Below are positions 40-61,400 of a stretch of 64,000 nucleotides of DNA, piece by piece. Both the position numbers and the translations under genes were made by a program. Position 1 is the stretch's first letter; the number at the start of each line of letters is the position of its first letter. Source of the stretch: Verrucomicrobiota bacterium. GTDB lineage: Bacteria; Verrucomicrobiota; Verrucomicrobiia; Limisphaerales; VHDF01. Below the pieces are notes generated by a model, which saw only the letters and a list, made by a program, of their open reading frames with translations, ran no database searches and had not been told where the DNA came from. The DNA lies in assembly GCA_016871495.1 (NCBI GenBank), contig VHDF01000010.1:1-64000 (forward strand). Reading direction: 5' to 3'.

Positions 40-239
40 GTGCATCCCGAAATTGTCTGTCGTGTGGCGCAGGCTGCCCAGCCTGCCGTATCGCCGACGG
101 CCCGTCGGCCCGGCGGGTGAAGAACGAAGCCCTTCCATGCTCTCCACGCGCCTGGTTCCCTTCGCCGCCCTGAAGGCTGGGCAGCCTGCGAAACAGCAGA
201 CAGGGCTGTCTGCGTTACCACGACAACCCCTGGATGCAC
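40..239 (+). repeat. dispersed structured element, family A, copy 1
   Basis: A 200-bp element bounded by inverted termini GTGCATCC (40-47) and GGATGCAC (232-239). It contains several short hairpins: GCAGGCT/AGCCTGC (69-86), GCCGAC/GTCGGC with a 5-nt loop (93-109), a second AGGCTG/CAGCCT hairpin near 173-190 and CAGACAG/CTGTCTG (197-212). Highly similar copies lie at 16698-16912, 51246-51460 (inverted) and 58152-58366. It sits about 60 bp before the prepilin-like gene. Open frames across it exist only because it is GC-rich. No transposase is encoded, so it is a non-autonomous or structural repeat. Confidence 0.85.
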
Positions 240-5088: not shown

Positions 5089-5245
5089 GCGTAGAATCGG
5101 AATGGCGTCTCGCCGCCGAAGTGGCCGTCGTGCAGTCGGCCACTCGAGCTGGCTTTGATCAACCCCACCAACCTCGACACCATGCTTCACAACGGTGCTT
5201 TCCGGAGCGCGTCGTGCTGGCTTGGAGATCGTCCATTCGCGACCA

Positions 5246-5471
5246 GCACATCCACTCGTTGTCGGTGATGCGCGCAGCAGCGCCGGGGCGCGGCGTTCAC
5301 GCCGCTTCCGCTCGTGACGACCAGCCGCGGCGATTTCCTCCCGCTCCATGGCCCGCCCGGGGTGAATGCCTTCGCCCTCGCAGCACCCTTGCCCGTTGAA
5401 CCTTCCATGCCCCTTTGAAGACACGCCTTGAAGCGCCGTGAACGGCGCGCCCCGACGGCTTGCGGATGCAC
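5246..5471 (+). repeat. inverted-repeat element, family G
   Basis: Two 28-bp arms, 5281-5308 and 5430-5457, are reverse complements with only about three mismatches, separated by about 120 bp. The outer limits GCACATCC (5246-5253) and GGATGCAC (5464-5471) resemble the termini of family A, and the left flank contains GTTGTCGGTGA as in family A copy 3. It fills most of the 450-bp gap between dppC and the TPR/peptidase gene. The remaining 5089-5245 holds nothing I recognise. No protein is encoded. Confidence 0.7.
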
Positions 5472-5540
5472 GGCTTCACCGCGAAAACGCCACTCGATCA
5501 TTGCTTCCGCTCCTGTTTCTGATTGGATTTGGCCCAGCTT

Positions 5541-12188: not shown

Positions 12189-12212
12189 GTGCTCAATTTC
12201 CAAACAGCCGTT

Positions 12213-12552
12213 CAGCCCGGAGATTTCGTGCTTTTTCCGCGACCGGGAATTTCCGGGCCAGGGAAACCGCGCCCTGTCGCACGAAACGCCTCCTTTTGGC
12301 AGGCTTTTTTCAGTCAAGCTTTTGCGTAGCTCGAGGCTGCTGGATTGCCGTTTTAAGCCAAAGAACTCCGCCGGGCCGGGGTGCGGAATGGTGAGTCACT
12401 TCACCATCAAGTTAGTCGGGAGGTTCAATAGTGTGTCGAACGGGAAATGCATAAGTTCGTTGAACAGGGGCGCGGTTTGATCTAACCCGCATGGCGGAAT
12501 GCTCGATGGTGAGCGTTTCCCAACCCAGTCGAGTGTGAATGATGCGGGTTAG
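12213..12552 (+). repeat. nested inverted-repeat element, family C, copy 1 (interrupted)
   Basis: A first hairpin with arms 12213-12225 and 12248-12260 (CAGCCCGGA.../...TCCGGGCCA), an inner pair AAACCGCGCCC (12264-12274) / GGGCGCGGTTT (12468-12478), and a second hairpin CTAACCCGCAT (12482-12492) / ATGCGGGTTAG (12542-12552). Compared with copy 2 (27400-27637) the middle is about 100 bp longer. The extra material contains a family F segment (12294-12353) and a half family D hairpin (12394-12426). The right terminus contains the TAA stop codon of the fusion gene on the minus strand. The element fills the whole convergent gap. Confidence 0.8.
12294..12353 (+). repeat. family F repeat segment, copy 1
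   Basis: About 60 bp starting TTTTGGCAGGC and containing CTTTTGCG and GCTGCTG, roughly 70 per cent identical by eye to 27928-27989. Located inside the extra central portion of element C1. Two copies only, so the family is provisional. Confidence 0.4.
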
Positions 12553-16590: not shown

Positions 16591-16697
16591 GGGCGAATTA
16601 AGCCCGAGGGCGGAACCGAAGAAAAGGAAAACCGTCGAAGGGCCCTGAATCATGGCTGGGCCGCTGCCGGCCCGGGAGTGATTCAGGTTCCGGCCCG

Positions 16698-16912
16698 GTG
16701 CATTCCGAAGTTGGCTGTCGTGTGGCGCAGGCTGCCCAGCCTGCCGTATCGCCGACGGCCAGTCGGCCTGGCGGGTGAAGAACGAAGCCCTTCCATGCTC
16801 TCCACGCACCCGGTTCCCTTCGTCGCCCCGCAGGCTGGGCCGCCTGCCCAACGGCAGACAGGGCTGTCTGCGTTACCACGACAACCCGGTCACCGGCAAA
16901 TTGCGGATGCAC
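16698..16912 (+). repeat. dispersed structured element, family A, copy 2
   Basis: Termini GTGCATTCC (from 16698) and GGATGCAC (16905-16912). Same internal order as copy 1: GCAGGCT/AGCCTGC, GCCGAC/GTCGGC with loop GGCCA (16751-16767), GCAGGC/GCCTGC, and CAGACAG/CTGTCTG. It fills most of the 388-bp divergent gap between exeA and trpA, so it would lie in or beside both promoters. Nothing else was recognised in the gap. Confidence 0.85.
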
Positions 16913-16978
16913 GGGTTCGGTCCAAGATCGAGCATTGAACCTTGAAAGTTGGAGGGGGTCTCGAAACACTGGATTGCA

Positions 16979-26468: not shown

Positions 26469-27398
26469 TTAACTCGTGGGGGCGGTTGCAGGTGTCAATG
26501 CAAAAGGTCGAATGCGCACGGCCCGGCGCCGGACGCTCATCACGCAGGGCAGCACCCCTGCAAAGTCTCCGTCGATCTGGAGCGGGACACGCTCCTGCGA
26601 GACCGGATCCAGCCGGATCTCGGGCGAAGCAGCTTGCCAGGCTGGCGGAGGGGCGGAGGGGTCTGATGCGTGAAGCCATTGTGCCAACCGGAGCGCTTTC
26701 GACCATGTCGTTCTGGGCCATCCGTAAAGGTGGATGAGGCCGTCGTCGAGTTCGGCGGTGGGGAACAGGCGGCGATCACCCGCGAATCGTTTGCCTTTGC
26801 CCACAAAAAGCTGGTCCAATTCCGCGCTGATTCCCGAGGCGGATTGGATTCGAAAGCGTCCTCGCTTTTCGGTCAGGGCTTGGCAGGCCGACCAGGCATA
26901 GGCGTACCGCCCGATCCTTTGTTTGAGCTTGTAACTCGCGATTTCCACTGCGCGGGCATCCAGTCCGGCGCCTCCGAGTTGCAGCATCCAGAGGGCTGGG
27001 TTCCTCGTCGGGTCTGGAAACTGAATCTCGACGAGATCGACCCAGCGGTCGTTGGAGGCATCGTCCAGATCCGGCGGTAAACGGGGTACGGCTGCCAGGC
27101 CGAGTTCGAGGGCATAGACATTGACGGTGCCAAAGGGGAGGATGCTGAGCGCGGTGTTGGAGGGGTTGGCGCCTGCCCGCATGAATCCGGTGACGACTTC
27201 GCGGATTGTGCCGTCACCGCCTGCGGCGATGACCCAACGGCATCCTTCGTTGACGGCCTGGCTGGCGAGGCGAGTCGCATCGCCGGCGCCTTGGGTTGGC
27301 TGGATAAGGAGGCCGGGTTGGGCCTGCCAGCGGGCCAAGTGTCGTCCGGCGCGTCCTCCTTGAGCCGAAGGGTTGAAAATCACGCGGACCGGCATCAT
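26469..27398 (-). CDS. diacylglycerol kinase family lipid kinase (YegS/DagK-like)
   Basis: A 309-residue lipid kinase. The N-terminal DAGK catalytic domain shows RVIFNPSAQGGRAGRHLARW, the nucleotide-binding WVIAAGGDGTIREVVTGFM (GGDGT) and LSILPFGTVNVYALELGL. The second beta-rich domain contains LQLGGAGLDARAVEI and the closing VPLQIDGDFAG motif. It should phosphorylate diacylglycerol or a related lipid using ATP at the inner membrane. ATG at 27398 lies only 2 bp from element C2, so the element occupies the leader or promoter of this gene. Confidence 0.9.
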   Translation of the reverse strand: MMPVRVIFNPSAQGGRAGRHLARWQAQPGLLIQPTQGAGDATRLASQAVNEGCRWVIAAGGDGTIREVVTGFMRAGANPSNTALSILPFGTVNVYALELGLAAVPRLPPDLDDASNDRWVDLVEIQFPDPTRNPALWMLQLGGAGLDARAVEIASYKLKQRIGRYAYAWSACQALTEKRGRFRIQSASGISAELDQLFVGKGKRFAGDRRLFPTAELDDGLIHLYGWPRTTWSKALRLAQWLHASDPSAPPPAWQAASPEIRLDPVSQERVPLQIDGDFAGVLPCVMSVRRRAVRIRPFALTPATAPTS

Positions 27399-27399
27399 T

Positions 27400-27637
27400 T
27401 AGCCCGGAAATTTCATACTTGTTCCGCGACCGGGAATTTCCGGGCTAGGGAAACCGCGCCCTGGTTGCCCGAAACGCTTCCTTTTCGATGGGTCCGAAGA
27501 AGAACTTCCTTTCACAGGATGTGGAATGAGAAAAGCATGAGTTGATTGAAGAGGGGCGCGGTTTGATCTAACCCGCATTGCTGAAACTCGATGGTGAGCG
27601 CTTCTCGTTCAAGCCGAGTGTGAAATATGCGGGTTAG
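27400..27637 (+). repeat. nested inverted-repeat element, family C, copy 2 (reference copy)
   Basis: Three pairs of inverted arms with no mismatch: TAGCCCGGAAATT (27400-27412) / AATTTCCGGGCTA (27435-27447); AAACCGCGCCC (27451-27461) / GGGCGCGGTTT (27554-27564); CTAACCCGCAT (27568-27578) / ATGCGGGTTAG (27627-27637). The middle pair encloses about 90 bp; the outer two are separate hairpins at each end. Other copies lie at 12213-12552 and 47298-47536. It encodes no protein and has no recognisable transposase. Confidence 0.85.
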
Positions 27638-27694
27638 ACGATGCGGGCCAGGGTTGGAAAGAAAAGGAAAAAACCGATGGGTATTCAACCTGCC

Positions 27695-27824
27695 GTGTAT
27701 CCCGATGTTGTTGGTAGGGCGGGCCTGTCCCAGCCCGCCGCCCACGGGATGCAAAACATCATGCTCCGGCGGCGCGCCGGGACGGACGCGCCCTACCTGC
27801 ATCACCGGCAACATCGGGATGCAC
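27695..27824 (+). repeat. REPIN-like element, family B, copy 1
   Basis: A 130-bp element with termini GTGTATCCCGATGTTG (27695-27710) and CAACATCGGGATGCAC (27809-27824). Inside are two opposed hairpins, each with GTAG at its outer 5-prime base: GTAG plus GGCGGGC/GCCCGCC (27714-27739), and on the other strand GTAG plus GGCGCG/CGCGCC (27771-27796). Two inverted GTAG-headed hairpins are the layout of REPINs mobilised by RAYT transposases in other bacteria. A near-identical inverted copy is at 58010-58139. Confidence 0.82.
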
Positions 27825-27927
27825 CGTTCAACCTGGCAACGGCAATTCAGTAACGATCTCTCGCAAGATCTTGGCGGCAAAAGCCTTTTTCAAGTTTCGA
27901 TGGTTCACCCGGAGGATCCGCCTCAAC

Positions 27928-46377: not shown

Positions 46378-47301
46378 ATGATGACCCGGCTGTTCCAACG
46401 TCTAGCCGGGGCTCTGGTGACGTTGTTGGGGACGGCGGTGCTTACTTTTTTGTTGGTCAATGCGGTGCCGGGTGACGTGGCTCGAGTGATCGCCGGGCCC
46501 AAAGCGACTCCCGACGTCATCAAGGCCATTCGTGAGAGATTTCATCTGGACGAACCGATGTGGAACAGGCTGGGGCTGCATTTGGCCCGGATCGCTCGCG
46601 GAGATCTGGGACAATCTTATGTCACTGACCAGCCCGTGGCGGAGGCCATCTTAAGTCGACTCCCGGTCACCGCGGCGTTGTCCGGCCTGGCGGTGTTGTT
46701 TTGGCTGGCCTTGGCGGTGCCCTTGGGCGTCTACACCGCGCGATGCCAGGGCACTTGGCTGGATCGGTCCGTCCTGGTTCTGGCGACATTGTCGCTTTCG
46801 ATTCCCTCGTTCTGGCTGGCACGCATGCTTCAATACTCGTTGTCCTACAAGCTGGGTTGGTTTCCGGTGGCCGGATTTCACGGCTGGCAGCATTTGTTGT
46901 TGCCGGCGGCGACACTGGCCTTGCTTTCGGTGGGTTACTACTCGCGATTGATCCATGCCAGCATGGTGGAGGTGCTGCGTAGTCCGTTCGTCCGCGCGGC
47001 GCGCGCCAAGGGTGCGTCCGAGTCGGCAGTGCTCCTCCGGCACGGATTGCGGAACGCCCTCATTGCGGTGGTGACCGTGCTGGGGATGGACGTGGCCGCG
47101 TTGCTGGGAGGGGTGATGTTCGTCGAGAACGTTTTCGCGCTTCCCGGCATAGGCACTCTGGCCGTGCAAAGCGTGTTCAATCTGGACGTGCCCGTGATCA
47201 TGGGCACGGTGCTCTTCAGCGCGTTGTTGGTGGTCGCGGCCAACCTCGCGGTCGATCTGCTCTACGGCTCGATCGATCCTCGCATCCAAACCGGGACCTA
47301 G
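46378..47301 (+). CDS. dppB: peptide ABC transporter permease, DppB type
   Basis: Inner-membrane permease, about 307 residues. Start at the ATG of 46378 (MMTRLFQRLAGALVTLLGTA), the usual DppB opening; a start at 46282 adds an unlikely extension. Family features: FLLVNAVPGDVARVIAG, FHLDEPMWNRLGLHLARIARGDLGQSYV, and the EAA loop SPFVRAARAKGASESAVLLRHGLRNA. It pairs with a DppC subunit, which is absent here and encoded at 4132-5088. Its TAG stop (47299-47301) lies inside the terminal arm of element C3, which separates it from dppD. Confidence 0.92.
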   Translation: MMTRLFQRLAGALVTLLGTAVLTFLLVNAVPGDVARVIAGPKATPDVIKAIRERFHLDEPMWNRLGLHLARIARGDLGQSYVTDQPVAEAILSRLPVTAALSGLAVLFWLALAVPLGVYTARCQGTWLDRSVLVLATLSLSIPSFWLARMLQYSLSYKLGWFPVAGFHGWQHLLLPAATLALLSVGYYSRLIHASMVEVLRSPFVRAARAKGASESAVLLRHGLRNALIAVVTVLGMDVAALLGGVMFVENVFALPGIGTLAVQSVFNLDVPVIMGTVLFSALLVVAANLAVDLLYGSIDPRIQTGT

Positions 47302-47536
47302 CCCGCATGTTTCACACTCGACTGGAATGGAAAACGATCACAAACGAGTTTATACAATGCGGGCTAGATAGAACCGCGTCCCTGCTCACCCTGATGCATG
47401 CATTTTCCTCTCAACACACGGTTGAACGAAGTCATTCCTCGGGCGTAACCAAAATGAGTTGTTTCGTGCCACGAGGGCGCGGTTTCTCCAGCCCGGAAAT
47501 TCCCAGTCACGGGACAAGTATGCAATTTCCGGGCTA
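47298..47536 (-). repeat. nested inverted-repeat element, family C, copy 3 (inverted)
   Basis: Inverted relative to copy 2. Arms CTAGCCCGCAT (47298-47308) / ATGCGGGCTAG (47357-47367); AACCGCGTCCC (47372-47382) / GGGCGCGGTTT (47475-47485, one mismatch); CAGCCCGGAAATT (47489-47501) / AATTTCCGGGCTA (47524-47536). The left arm contains the dppB stop codon and the right arm ends 10 bp before the dppD ATG, so the element is the entire dppB-dppD spacer. Confidence 0.85.
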
Positions 47537-51239: not shown

Positions 51240-51245
51240 AGAGCA

Positions 51246-51460
51246 GCGCATCCATAAGTTGTCGGTGACCGGGCTTTCGTGGTAACGCCGACAGCCCTGT
51301 CTGCTGTGGCGCAGGCTGCCCAGCCTGCGGGGCGGCGATGGGAACGAGGCGCGTGGAGAGCATGGAGGGGCCTCGATCTTCACGCGCCGGGCCGACTGGC
51401 AGTCGGCGACACTGCAGGCTGGGCAGCCTGCGCCAGTGTGCCGACAACTTCGGGATGCGC
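51246..51460 (-). repeat. dispersed structured element, family A, copy 3 (inverted)
   Basis: Inverted copy with termini GCGCATCC (51246-51253) and GGATGCGC (51453-51460). The GCCGAC/GTCGGC stem is kept with a different loop, TGGCA (51391-51407); the GCAGGCT/AGCCTGC and CAGACAG-type stems are also kept. It fills the convergent space between the binding-protein gene and the DUF1592-class gene, and could act as a bidirectional transcription block, although no U-tract is present. Confidence 0.85.
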
Positions 51461-51474
51461 CCACTGAAGAGTGT

Positions 51475-57268: not shown

Positions 57269-57916
57269 CTATCCCGTCGGGATGCGATAACGCGCCATGA
57301 AGCACGCGTCGTTGCCGGCGAGATCCTCCCGGCGCTGGCCGGACAGAAGCCCTCCGTAAATCCGCGCATCCCGGGACATCATGCGCAAGCGATGTTTCAA
57401 GTTGTCACTCGAAACTTCTCCATCCTTCAAATCTTCCTTGTCCGAGAAAGTAACGGCGTAGGGCAGCGACCACGCGTAGCATTGCCGGGCGACGGTGCGA
57501 ATCTGATCGGCAACGGTCAGCCCCTTCTCCGGCGAGCCGACGACCGGCACAAACAACTTGCCGGCGAACTCTCTCCAGAAATGGTCGAGGAAATTCTTCA
57601 GCGCTCCACTCATGCTTCCGTGATAGTCGGGAGTTCCAAGGATGAGCGCGTCCGCGCGCTCCACCCTCACTTTGAGCGTGGGATAGCCCGGCAACGCGTA
57701 GGACGCATTGGCGTCGAACATGCTCAGCGACTCGACGGAGAGATCGAGGACATCCGTGGAACAACCCTGCGAGCGCATGATGTCGGCGGCTCGGAGGACG
57801 ACCGTCCGTGTGCCCGACGCGGGGTGCAGGTTGCCCACCACGGCAAGCACATGGGGCTGGGGATTGGGCTGGGGATCCTTGTTTTGAGAATCAGGAAGAG
57901 TATCGATTGGGGTCAT
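57269..57916 (-). CDS. NADPH-dependent FMN reductase family protein
   Basis: Flavodoxin-like flavoprotein of about 215 residues. From the ATG at 57916, after a Pro/Asn-rich N-terminus, it shows VLAVVGNLHPASGTRTVVLRAADIM, the flavin-binding ADALILGTPDYHGSMSGALKNFLDHF, and KLFVPVVGSPEKGLTVADQIR. It should use NAD(P)H to reduce FMN or small electrophiles such as quinones or azo compounds. A longer upstream frame runs only through repeats B2 and A4 and is rejected. Confidence 0.87.
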   Translation of the reverse strand: MTPIDTLPDSQNKDPQPNPQPHVLAVVGNLHPASGTRTVVLRAADIMRSQGCSTDVLDLSVESLSMFDANASYALPGYPTLKVRVERADALILGTPDYHGSMSGALKNFLDHFWREFAGKLFVPVVGSPEKGLTVADQIRTVARQCYAWSLPYAVTFSDKEDLKDGEVSSDNLKHRLRMMSRDARIYGGLLSGQRREDLAGNDACFMARYRIPTG

Positions 57917-58009
57917 GGCATCCAGCCGGTCGCGCGCGACAGGCGGATGAAAAGATAGCCAAGGAACGCGGTCATGGAAATGGTTAAAACCCAGGCCCGG
58001 AGATGACCG

Positions 58010-58139
58010 GTGCATCCCGAAGTTGCCGGGGATGCAGGTAGGGCGCGTCCGTCCCGGCGCGCCGCCGGAGCATGATGTTTTGCATCCCGTGGGCGGCGGG
58101 CTGGGACAGGCCCGCCCTACCAACAACATCGGGATGCAC
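58010..58139 (-). repeat. REPIN-like element, family B, copy 2 (inverted)
   Basis: Inverted copy of 27695-27824, with termini TGCATCCCGAAGTTG (from 58011) and CAACATCGGGATGCAC (58124-58139). Two opposed hairpins carry GTAG (58038-58041) and CTAC (58117-58120) at their outer bases. It is followed after 12 bp by family A copy 4, so two elements with the same kind of terminus lie in tandem. Confidence 0.82.
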
Positions 58140-58151
58140 GGGGAGATGGCC

Positions 58152-58366
58152 GTGCATCCCGAAGTGGTCTGTCGTGTGGCGCAGGCTGCCCAGCCTGCTG
58201 TATCGCCGGCTTCGAGTCGGCCCGGCGGGTGAAGAACGAGGTCCTTCCATCCTCTCCACACGCCTGGTTCCCTTCGTCGCTCCGCAGGCTGGGGCGCCTG
58301 CGCAACAACAGACAGGGCTGTCTGCGTGACCACGGCAACCCGGTCCCCGACAGCCTCCGGATGCAC
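58152..58366 (+). repeat. dispersed structured element, family A, copy 4
   Basis: Termini GTGCATCC (58152-58159) and GGATGCAC (58359-58366). The stem GCCGGC/GTCGGC (58205-58221) has a changed loop, TTCGA, and a G-T pair in place of A-T, so pairing is kept despite a base change. Other stems are as in copies 1-3. It sits 65 bp before the DUF1549 gene. Confidence 0.85.
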
Positions 58367-58431
58367 CGCCGGGGATCTTTTCCCAGCCTCCAGGGTTGCG
58401 CCACAGTGTCAGCGCCGCTAGACTTCCCGTC

Positions 58432-61400
58432 ATGTTGGCCTTTGTCCATCTTCCGCCCGGAAACCCGGCGCGTTCGCTGCTTTTGGACCTCGCGACATCG
58501 CCCCGGCGGCGATGGCTTGCGCTGGCGCTTTTTTTCGGCCTCGCGGCCTCGGCGGCCTTCGGCCAGGACCGAGTCCAATTCGACCGCGATATCCGTCCGA
58601 TTCTCTCCGATCATTGCTACGCCTGCCATGGACCCGATGAAAACAAGCGGAAAGGCGGCCTTCGCCTCGACGTCCAGGAAACCGCTTTCCTTCCTGCCAA
58701 ATCAGGCAAGAAGGCCATTGTTCCTGGTGATCGCGCTCAAAGCGAGTTGATCCACCGGATCACGACCCAGGACGAGGACGATCGCATGCCGCCCGCCAAA
58801 GGGGGCAAACCGCTCTCTTCCGGCCAGATCGCAATCCTCCAGAAATGGATCGATCAAGGCGCTGCCTGGCAGGGCCACTGGGCTTACGCAAAGCCCGTCG
58901 CGTCCGAGTTGCCCAAAGTTCAGGCTGAGGCCAAGGTCCGCAATGAAATCGATCGCTTCATCCTGGCCCGTCTCGAGAAGGAAGGGCTGACCCTGTCCCG
59001 CGAAGCCGATCGCGCCCGGCTCATTCGCCGCGTGACACTCGATCTCACCGGCCTCCCCCCCATACCCAAGGAAATCGACGACTTCGTCCAGGACACCAGC
59101 GCGGGCGCCTACGAGAAGCTCGTGGATCGATTGATGAAGTCCCCCGCGTACGGGGAGCGCATGGTGATGTTTTGGCTGGATTTGGCCCGGTTCGCCGACA
59201 CCCAAGGCTATCATCACGACGATCACCGCGATGTTCACCGCTGGCGTGAATGGTGCATCAAGGCCTTCAACAACAACATGCCGTTCGACCAGTTCACCGT
59301 TGAACAACTGGCCGGAGATCTCCTCCCGAATCCAACGGAGGACCAAAAAATCGCCACCGGTTTTCACCGCAATGAAATGACCACGTCCGAAGGCGGCGCC
59401 ATGCCCGAGGAATATTCGGTGAAATACGTCGTCGGACGGGTCGATACGACCGCTCGCGTCTGGCTCGGCTCCTCACTCGCCTGCGCCGAATGCCATGACC
59501 ATAAGTACGATCCCATCTCTCAGAAAGAGTTCTATCAGATGTTCGCCTATTTCAACAATGTCCCGGAGAACGGGCTGGACGCCGGACAGAACCCCGTGCC
59601 GCGCCTCATGTTGAGCTCGTCCGAGCAGCGCAACCGGCTCGAACAATTCAACAAGGAAATCGGCGCGCTCGAATCGCTCGATCGTGCCCTGCTCGAAGAG
59701 GCCCACGGCGCACGGGACAAGGATCGCGACACGTGGATCGCGAAGATCGATGAACAAGTGATGGACACCTGGCAGGCGCGGAAGCCCCTCGCCGCCAGCG
59801 CCCGGTCCGGCGCCACACTCTCCGTGACCGACGACGGCACGGTGCTCGCCTCGGGCAAGAATCCCCCCAAGGAAATCTACGAAGCCCGCCTGAGCATCGA
59901 AGGGACGAACTTGATCGGGCTGCGGCTCGAGGCTCTCCCGGATTCCTCTTTGCCCGAGGGAAAATCCGGGCGCGGCGCCAAAGGCGAGTTCGTCTTGACC
60001 TCCGTTTCGGTCCTGGCCCGAGCCGCCGGGGACCTTCCCTCTGCGCCCAAGCCCTCCCGACAAGACGCTTGGTCCATCCTCGGCCCGTTTTCCGCAGGGT
60101 CGCTCAAGGAAGCTCTTGAGAAAAAGTGGGGGCCGGAAGACGGCCTGGACCTCGCCAAGACCTATCAAGATGGCAAGTTGAAATGGCGGGAGCTGAAGGA
60201 TCATCCGTCCGATGAGTTCACTTTTGAAGGAACCAACGCCGCCACGTTCGTCACGCGCAAGATCCACTTCGACTCGCCCGTGCGTGCCTTCGTCAGCCTG
60301 GAAGATCAGCTCGGCGCGCAACTGTGGGTGAACGGACGCCGGCTCCATGCGACGGAAGGAGACCAGGCAGGCCAGAAATCTACGGTCAAAATCCCCGCTT
60401 ATTTCAAGTCCGGCGAGAACACGCTCCTGGTCAAAGTCGTCCATCACGCCGGTCCCGGCCTCAAAACGGCGCTGCTCACCGAGCCCGTGAAGGAATATGC
60501 GGTGGATCTGGCCGCCGCGACGGCGGACTTCAATGGGGGCGGATATTCGGCGGGGGGCGTTCTGGACGACCGCAACACCACCGGATGGAGCCTGGGCGAG
60601 GACGATGCCGCGAAGAAGCCGCGTTCGCTCTACCTTCGCGCGCATGATCCGTTCGGATTCGCTGAACGCGGCGAATTGGTGGTGACCCTCAAGTTCGAGT
60701 CGCCCAAACCCGCGCAGACTTTGGGGCGATTCAAACTCTCGACGACTTCGTCCGCCCTCCTGGGTGATTTCTTCGATCTGCCCGAGAACGCGCGCGGCAT
60801 CTTCGCGGTCTCGAAGTCCGAACGTAACCCGGATCAGCGGCTCGAATTGCAGCGCCATTACCGCCGCACGTTCGTCCCCGAAATCAAGGAATGGGTCAAA
60901 ACGCTGGGCGAAAAGCGCAAGCAACGCGACGATCACCGCAACAGCATCGATGTCTCGATGGTGATGGAGGACATGTCGAAGCGAAGGGATTCTTTCTTGC
61001 TCGTGCGCGGAGAATTCGGCAACCGCGGGGCCAAGGTTGAGCCCGGAGTGCTCACGAATGTCTTCCCTTTGCCTGAAGGACTTCCCCCGAACCGGCTGGG
61101 GCTGGCCAAGTGGTTGGTTCATCCCGAACATCCGCTTACGTCCCGGGTCACGGTCAACCGCTATTGGCAGCAGTATTTTGGAACGGGCCTGGTCAAGACC
61201 GCCGAGGAGTTTGGATCCCAAGGGGAACGGCCTTCCCACCCCGAATTGCTCGACTGGCTTGCCGTGGAGTTCGTCAAGCGTGGTTGGGACATGAAGGCGA
61301 TGCACAAGATGATCGTGATGTCCGCCACCTACCGGCAGGATTCAGAAGTCGAGGCGGCTTTGCTCAAGCGCGATCCCGAGAGCCGGTTGCTCGCCCGTTT

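Follow-up and report, generated by a model that had tools for sequence, protein, structure and literature searches.

Hundreds of gene-less inserts in one Verrucomicrobiota genome carry a single type of end around differing, hairpin-rich middles. The three families described here, A, B and G, form a new superfamily of MITEs; the kind of IS and of transposition is already known. They very probably belong to one ISKra4-like IS lineage, with common termini, target duplication and promoter address, and with interiors that are cargo whose cores probably entered by insertion or recombination. The window, a stretch of 64,000 nucleotides, contains all three families (Table 1). A preliminary description of it had counted four copies of A and two of B, all of which were located, and had placed a B and an A element 12 bp apart at 58010-58366, which is correct; it also rightly saw four small hairpins in A and two opposed GTAG hairpins in B. 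G, suspected of being perhaps a half copy, turned out to be complete, with a decayed left end. The two B copies are 98% identical. No Rfam match was obtained in the window. Another dispersed repeat family, in pieces of up to 140 bp that are 76 to 91% alike, occupies 12211-12552, 27398-27637 and 47298-47536; one copy lies next to the B element at 27695.

Table 1. Elements, target duplications and promoter boxes in the window. Offset 29 is defined in the text.
Feature	Position (elements with CN/NG tips)	Position without tips	Strand	Remarks
A copy, 200-bp variant	38-241	40-239	+	Shortened right end; -35 box TTGTGA at offset 29, right side
G element	5244-5473	5246-5471	+	Left end decayed (CAGCACATCCACTCGTTGTCGGTGATG)
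TTGCTT beside G	5501-5506			Offset 29, counted from the sequence; precedes gene starting at 5523 (+)
A copy	16696-16914	16698-16912	+	-35 box TTGAAA at 16942-16947, offset 29
Target duplication of B copy	27684-27692 and 27827-27835			Perfect 9 bp, TTCAACCTG
B copy	27693-27826	27695-27824	-	-35-like box at offset 29, left side
A copy	51244-51462	51246-51460	-	In convergent gene spacer; no promoter at the expected offset
-35 box TTTCCA	57975-57980		-	-10 TATCTT, 17-bp spacer; offset 29 from B; reads toward gene 57269-57916 (-)
Left target duplication of B	57999-58007			9 bp, GGAGATGAC
B element	58008-58141 (134 bp)	58010-58139	+	Two opposed GTAG hairpins within 18- to 22-bp inverted termini
Right target duplication of B	58142-58150			9 bp, GGAGATGGC; 8/9 identical to left GGAGATGAC
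A element	58150-58368	58152-58366	+	Four small GC hairpins; directly adjoins B
-35 box TTGCGC	58396-58401		+	-10 TAGACT 58419-58424; offset 29 from A; toward gene starting at 58432 (+)

The genome assembly comprises 5.06 Mb in 201 contigs, and a sample of 861 kb was used for the terminus matrix, pairing and typing, alongside search matches and short pieces of sequence. The elements measure 130 bp (B), 215 bp (A) and about 225 bp (G), have no coding capacity and end in terminal inverted repeats. Termini of the form CNGTGCATCCNNANGTTGTCGGT occurred about 150 times in the sample, compared with 0 to 5 times in the reversed sequence. A position weight matrix gave 151 matches at 16 bits or more (reversed control, 0) and 165 at 10 bits or more (reversed control, 5), and these counts, scaled to the genome, indicate of the order of 450 elements. 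Over the whole genome, the pattern GTGCATCCCGAWGTTG with at most one mismatch was found 330 times and its reversed form not once; the common termini therefore extend beyond chance throughout the genome. Aligned flanks placed the start of the element two bases outside GTGC, as C-N-GTGCATCC, with a symmetrical far end. The preliminary description had given A and B a common end of about 15 bp: the termini are indeed common, but they run to about 22 to 26 bp, and the true boundary lies two bases further out, with CN directly before GTGCATCC.

A and B are each present in at least 40 copies genome-wide, with identities of about 87 to 90% and 98 to 99%, respectively, and the 62 sampled elements that were paired and typed comprised 33 B, 17 A, 9 G, 2 mixed A and G, and 1 untyped. 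All three families carried a target duplication of constant length, 9 bp, which matched at seven or more of nine positions in 78 of 95 elements and at all nine in 49. Perfect duplications flanked 44 of 64 B elements but only 5 of 26 A elements, 19 of which matched at seven positions or more. From its high identity and its many perfect duplications B is young, and A, by the same two measures, is older. Contigs ending at or next to B elements were observed (L032 on C96 and L080 on C5). The high-copy B repeats are therefore a probable cause of breaks in the assembly, which may lack IS copies. A separate repeat, GTGCATCCCGGAGGGATGCCAGC, occurs at C2:68629, C6:48195, C12:18760 and C18:37684; at the last of these a B element with the duplication CTGCGACGC is inserted into or beside it.

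The flanks of the B elements contained a -35/-10 pair that started at one offset, 29, which means 29 bases after GCAC, 18 bp beyond the 9-bp duplication and 27 bp from the end of the inverted repeat (IR). With promoters predicted from sequence, a sigma-70 -35 box stood at this offset at 48 of 128 B junctions, against about 2.5 at other offsets, and the same peak was seen with A (17 of 51 junctions) and G (4 of 8). MITEs with unrelated interiors in three other genomes also showed it (G013, 6 of 32; G003, 12 of 30; G090, 4 of 14). Across the families, other offsets averaged 0.15 to 2.5 junctions each, and the binomial p value for offset 29 ranged from 3e-3 to 4e-48. Plain counts of TTG at offset 29, made without a promoter model, were 39 versus 1.9 for B, 19 versus 0.8 for A, and 19 versus 1.6 in the other genomes. 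The one complete IS with an intact duplication (L219/L273) had a -35 box on both sides. The insertion address is common to A, B, G, the unrelated MITEs elsewhere and this IS.

Thirteen pairs of neighbors in the 861-kb sample were less than 60 bp apart, and in 11 of them, with about 0.02 expected, the gap was 12 to 14 bp, the length of one duplication plus tips. The layout is duplication, first element, duplication, second element, duplication, as in GATTTGTCG-A-GATTTATCG-B-GATTTTTCG. Were the promoter to define the address, the second element of a tandem would be expected on the promoter side; a promoter-like pair lay outside B in 10 of 13 tandem cases and outside the partner in 2 of 7, although these numbers are small. 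A fixed promoter address explains the tandem pairs, including that in the window, where the two promoters are divergent and B faces that of the leftward gene and A that of the rightward gene, each at offset 29 from its own element.

The same ends surround other cores elsewhere. The comparison set was 293 genomes of the same order, this genome included as the only member of its family and genus. The pattern CNGTGCATCCNNANGTTG was found in 52 of them, and at least five times in 19, with counts of 81 in G013, 51 in G090, 47 each in G089 and G273, 46 in G003, and 38 in G084. The interiors under these ends differed, the elements being 159 bp in G013, 157 bp in G003 and G090, 168 to 195 bp in G089, about 137 bp in G084, 150 bp in G151, 186 bp in G051, and of further kinds in others; several had 9-of-9 duplications. 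The 157-bp family is common to G003 (L303-L322) and G090 (L333-L342), which belong to two taxonomic families, and this suggests transfer or an old shared element. One MITE with the same left 9 bp, GGCGGCAGC, was likewise seen in two families (L359 in G166 and L369 in G114), the G166 copy bearing an extra insert of about 290 bp.

The A and B cores also occur without these ends. A search of the 293 genomes with B matched the GTAG hairpin dimer in 69, this genome included, and the matches elsewhere were mostly confined to query positions of about 25 to 113, with the terminus alone (108 to 130) matched in a few genomes; the hairpins of A (25 to 70 and 127 to 179) were matched in 66, again including this one. 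Read directly, L343 and L344 are opposed GTAG dimers and L349 is a GTAG-tagged A-like core, all without GTGCATCC ends. GTAG-tagged palindromes in the form of inverted dimers are present both in the B core and in free homologs in other genomes. Other GTAG hairpins lie within the MITEs of G051, G084, G089 and G151, and none was found in the elements read from family G and from genomes G013 and G003. With free cores on one side and the same ends on other cores on the other, cores and ends are separable in both directions. Two mosaics were found in this genome: C5:29272-29523, which has one G-type and one A-type end and a duplication in common with a neighboring B, and C20:13810-13939, a B core with an A/G-type end. 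The interchangeable cargo proposed in the preliminary description is supported by these mosaics and by the end-less cores. Inversion of the core inside B, an idea raised by the two end types, was dropped, as aligned copies kept one orientation, a few terminal substitutions aside.

The likely mobilizer was traced from genome G056, in which six contigs break just inside such an end, where the last 38 residues of a transposase are encoded. These residues gave no identification against Pfam and NCBIfam, and relatives of the peptide were found in 28 of the 293 genomes. For the near-complete open reading frames (ORFs), the best full-profile family was NF033572 (transpos_ISKra4), with E values of 2e-53 to 6e-52, and 8e-45, and scores of 154 to 182 bits, under the equivalog cutoff of 205; ISLre2 and ISH6 were the next-best models. 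D185, D275 and E392 are invariant in the transposase alignment and would fit a DDE triad. Complete ISs of about 1.5 to 2.2 kb with the same inverted ends were found in other families of the order (among L194-L221). One of them, L219 (= L273, JAKANS010000006.1), has a perfect 9-bp duplication, GTCCGCAGC, and its end matches the termini of the mini-elements at 17 to 21 of the first 22 bp; a deletion derivative in L197 has the duplication CCCTTCGCG. In many full ISs the duplications have decayed or the ORFs are broken. The named relatives in GTDB genomes come from Verrucomicrobiota MAGs, except one labeled only "bacterium."

The preliminary description had proposed looking for a transposase that covaries with copy number, and such a match was present in 12 of the 19 high-copy genomes versus 28 of 293 overall (Fisher p of 1.6e-9, uncorrected for kinship), leaving 7 of the 19 without one. 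The genome under study gave no match to the 38-residue peptide or to the full IS transposase, and no autonomous partner was found in it; its best match to NF033572 comprised 43 residues and 20 bits. This stretch, C16:8413-8544, was considered as a decayed ISKra4 relic and was unconvincing on reading. An assembly in 201 contigs may have dropped IS repeats. We infer from the sequence comparisons that A, B and G are mobilized by the ISKra4-like transposase, possibly by a local copy that was lost or left unassembled.

In the 2.2-kb ISs an upstream ORF belongs to the DruA family, PF14236 in Pfam (L268:159-1022, L273:2321-3064, and L216), and in L268 it overlaps the transposase reading frame. DruA is named after the Druantia anti-phage system. 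PADLOC gave no match to this ORF, which is possibly a transposon-borne relative of DruA.

Three other explanations were weighed. The elements could be REP/REPIN-type repeats moved by RAYTs (REP-associated tyrosine transposases), with the GTGCATCC ends as incidental flanks. GTAG-tagged hairpin dimers in B, in free-form A and in several cores of other genomes point that way, as do five Y1_Tnp (PF01797) ORFs in this genome (L061-L065). However, no GTAG stem-loop was found beside any of these five, the cores of G and of the G013 and G003 elements hold no GTAG hairpin, and the duplicated unit extends from one terminus to the other, with a 9-bp target duplication around it. To our knowledge, tyrosine transposases of the IS200/IS605 kind make no such duplication. 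A RAYT was accordingly rejected as the mobilizer, and the explanation as a whole is very unlikely. We consider it about equally unlikely that insertion is random and that selection keeps those elements which lie upstream of promoters as regulatory parts. In keeping with selection, 60 of the 62 sampled elements were intergenic although 86% of the sample is coding, and sampled B elements occurred in co-directional and divergent spacers and never in convergent ones. Selection would not, however, set the distance to a single base pair, nor would it put tandem copies in exactly the same 9 bp.

The least probable of the three, to be given hardly any credence, is that there was no common mobilizer and that the termini of A, B and G converged under different transposases or were spread by gene conversion. 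Mosaics with the ends or cores of two families do show that ends are exchanged, but the 9-bp duplication and the promoter address, which are alike in all families and in the complete IS, require a common enzyme specificity and more than a likeness of sequence.

Mobilization by one ISKra4-like lineage also agrees with the single mobilizing activity that the preliminary description had postulated, as A, B and G have termini, duplication and address in common. As we envisage it, a DDE transposase of the prokaryotic Mutator superfamily would bind the termini of about 22 to 26 bp, C-N-GTGCATCC-NNANGTTGTCGGT, whatever lies between them, and would insert the element with a 9-bp target duplication whose end lies 18 bp upstream of a sigma-70 -35 box, so that the promoter is not disrupted. 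With its place fixed by the promoter, a later element could enter the duplicated 9 bp next to an earlier one and so produce the tandem layout. The route of core capture is likewise deduced: the A and B cores, which elsewhere are dispersed hairpin repeats without ends, probably entered the frame by insertion or recombination.

The preliminary description did not recognize a described family, and this fits a limited literature search as far as the mini-elements are concerned; the kind of IS is itself described, as ISKra4/p-MULT 4, with IRs of 18 to 39 bp, a terminal C, and a duplication of 8 or 9 bp (PMC3942029). The autonomous IS found here resembles it in its similarity to NF033572, in an IR that starts with C and is within the published size, and in its 9-bp duplication. 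It differs in bit scores under the NCBIfam equivalog cutoff, in the upstream DruA-family ORF, and in that pattern-scan matches came only from Verrucomicrobiota (one record being labeled only "bacterium"); A, B and G differ in carrying no gene. ISKra4-group ISs with near-perfect IRs insert at a fixed distance upstream of sigma-70-type promoters, on either side (PMC3942029), and so do A, B, G, the G003, G013 and G090 elements, and L219. In published ISKra4-group and ISLre2/TnGBS elements the IR end is 13 to 17 bp upstream of a sigma-A -35 box (PMC3942029). Here the box lies 27 bp from the IR and 18 bp beyond the duplication; targeting is of the same kind, while its register may differ.

The cores of B and of the G051, G084, G089 and G151 elements, and the free relatives of A, are GTAG-tagged and mostly opposed dimers, like GTAG REP dimers and REPINs (PMC3733652, PMC3116915), and nesting of REP dimers in long palindromes has been described for GTAG-15 of Anabaena variabilis (PMC3733652). 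Unlike REPINs, the moving unit here has IS-type termini and a 9-bp duplication and lies upstream of promoters, while REPs lie downstream of genes. Correia/NEMIS, RUP, Nezha and MITEAba12 (PMC10969869) are similarly short, gene-less and intergenic, with IS-related inverted termini and a target duplication; the present elements differ in that a single genome combines one terminus with several unrelated cores, in a promoter address exact to a single base pair, and in the tandem re-use of one target site. The text of this review of bacterial MITEs (PMC10969869) mentions neither ISKra4 nor Mutator.

Several unrelated mini-elements and an IS, in different families of one order, have one terminus, one duplication length and one base-pair-exact address in common. 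Promoter-targeted transposition has been described for TnGBS, ISLre2 and some ISKra4-group ISs (PMC3942029); the present elements add high-copy MITEs to that list. They also suggest a simple reason for the tandem stacking of bacterial mini-elements and for the repeat of the target sequence that goes with it. In bacteria that have not been cultured, the insertions pinpoint promoters with base-pair accuracy, and the elements amount to a natural experiment in which structured DNA stands at a constant distance upstream of many promoters. More tentatively, and with somewhat more doubt than confidence, the ISKra4-like transposase may act as a shuttle that repeatedly frames REP dimers which exist independently, brings them to one exact position ahead of promoters and stacks them there, docking on promoter-bound RNA polymerase or sigma factor. 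If so, a bacterial lineage would repeatedly re-equip hundreds of promoters with new structured upstream DNA.

At two loci of this genome, C6:54501-54575 and C11:55122-55196, GTAG hairpin dimers lie within a different inverted terminus, approximately AGTTCTCATTT, making two types of frame for cores of this kind in the genome.
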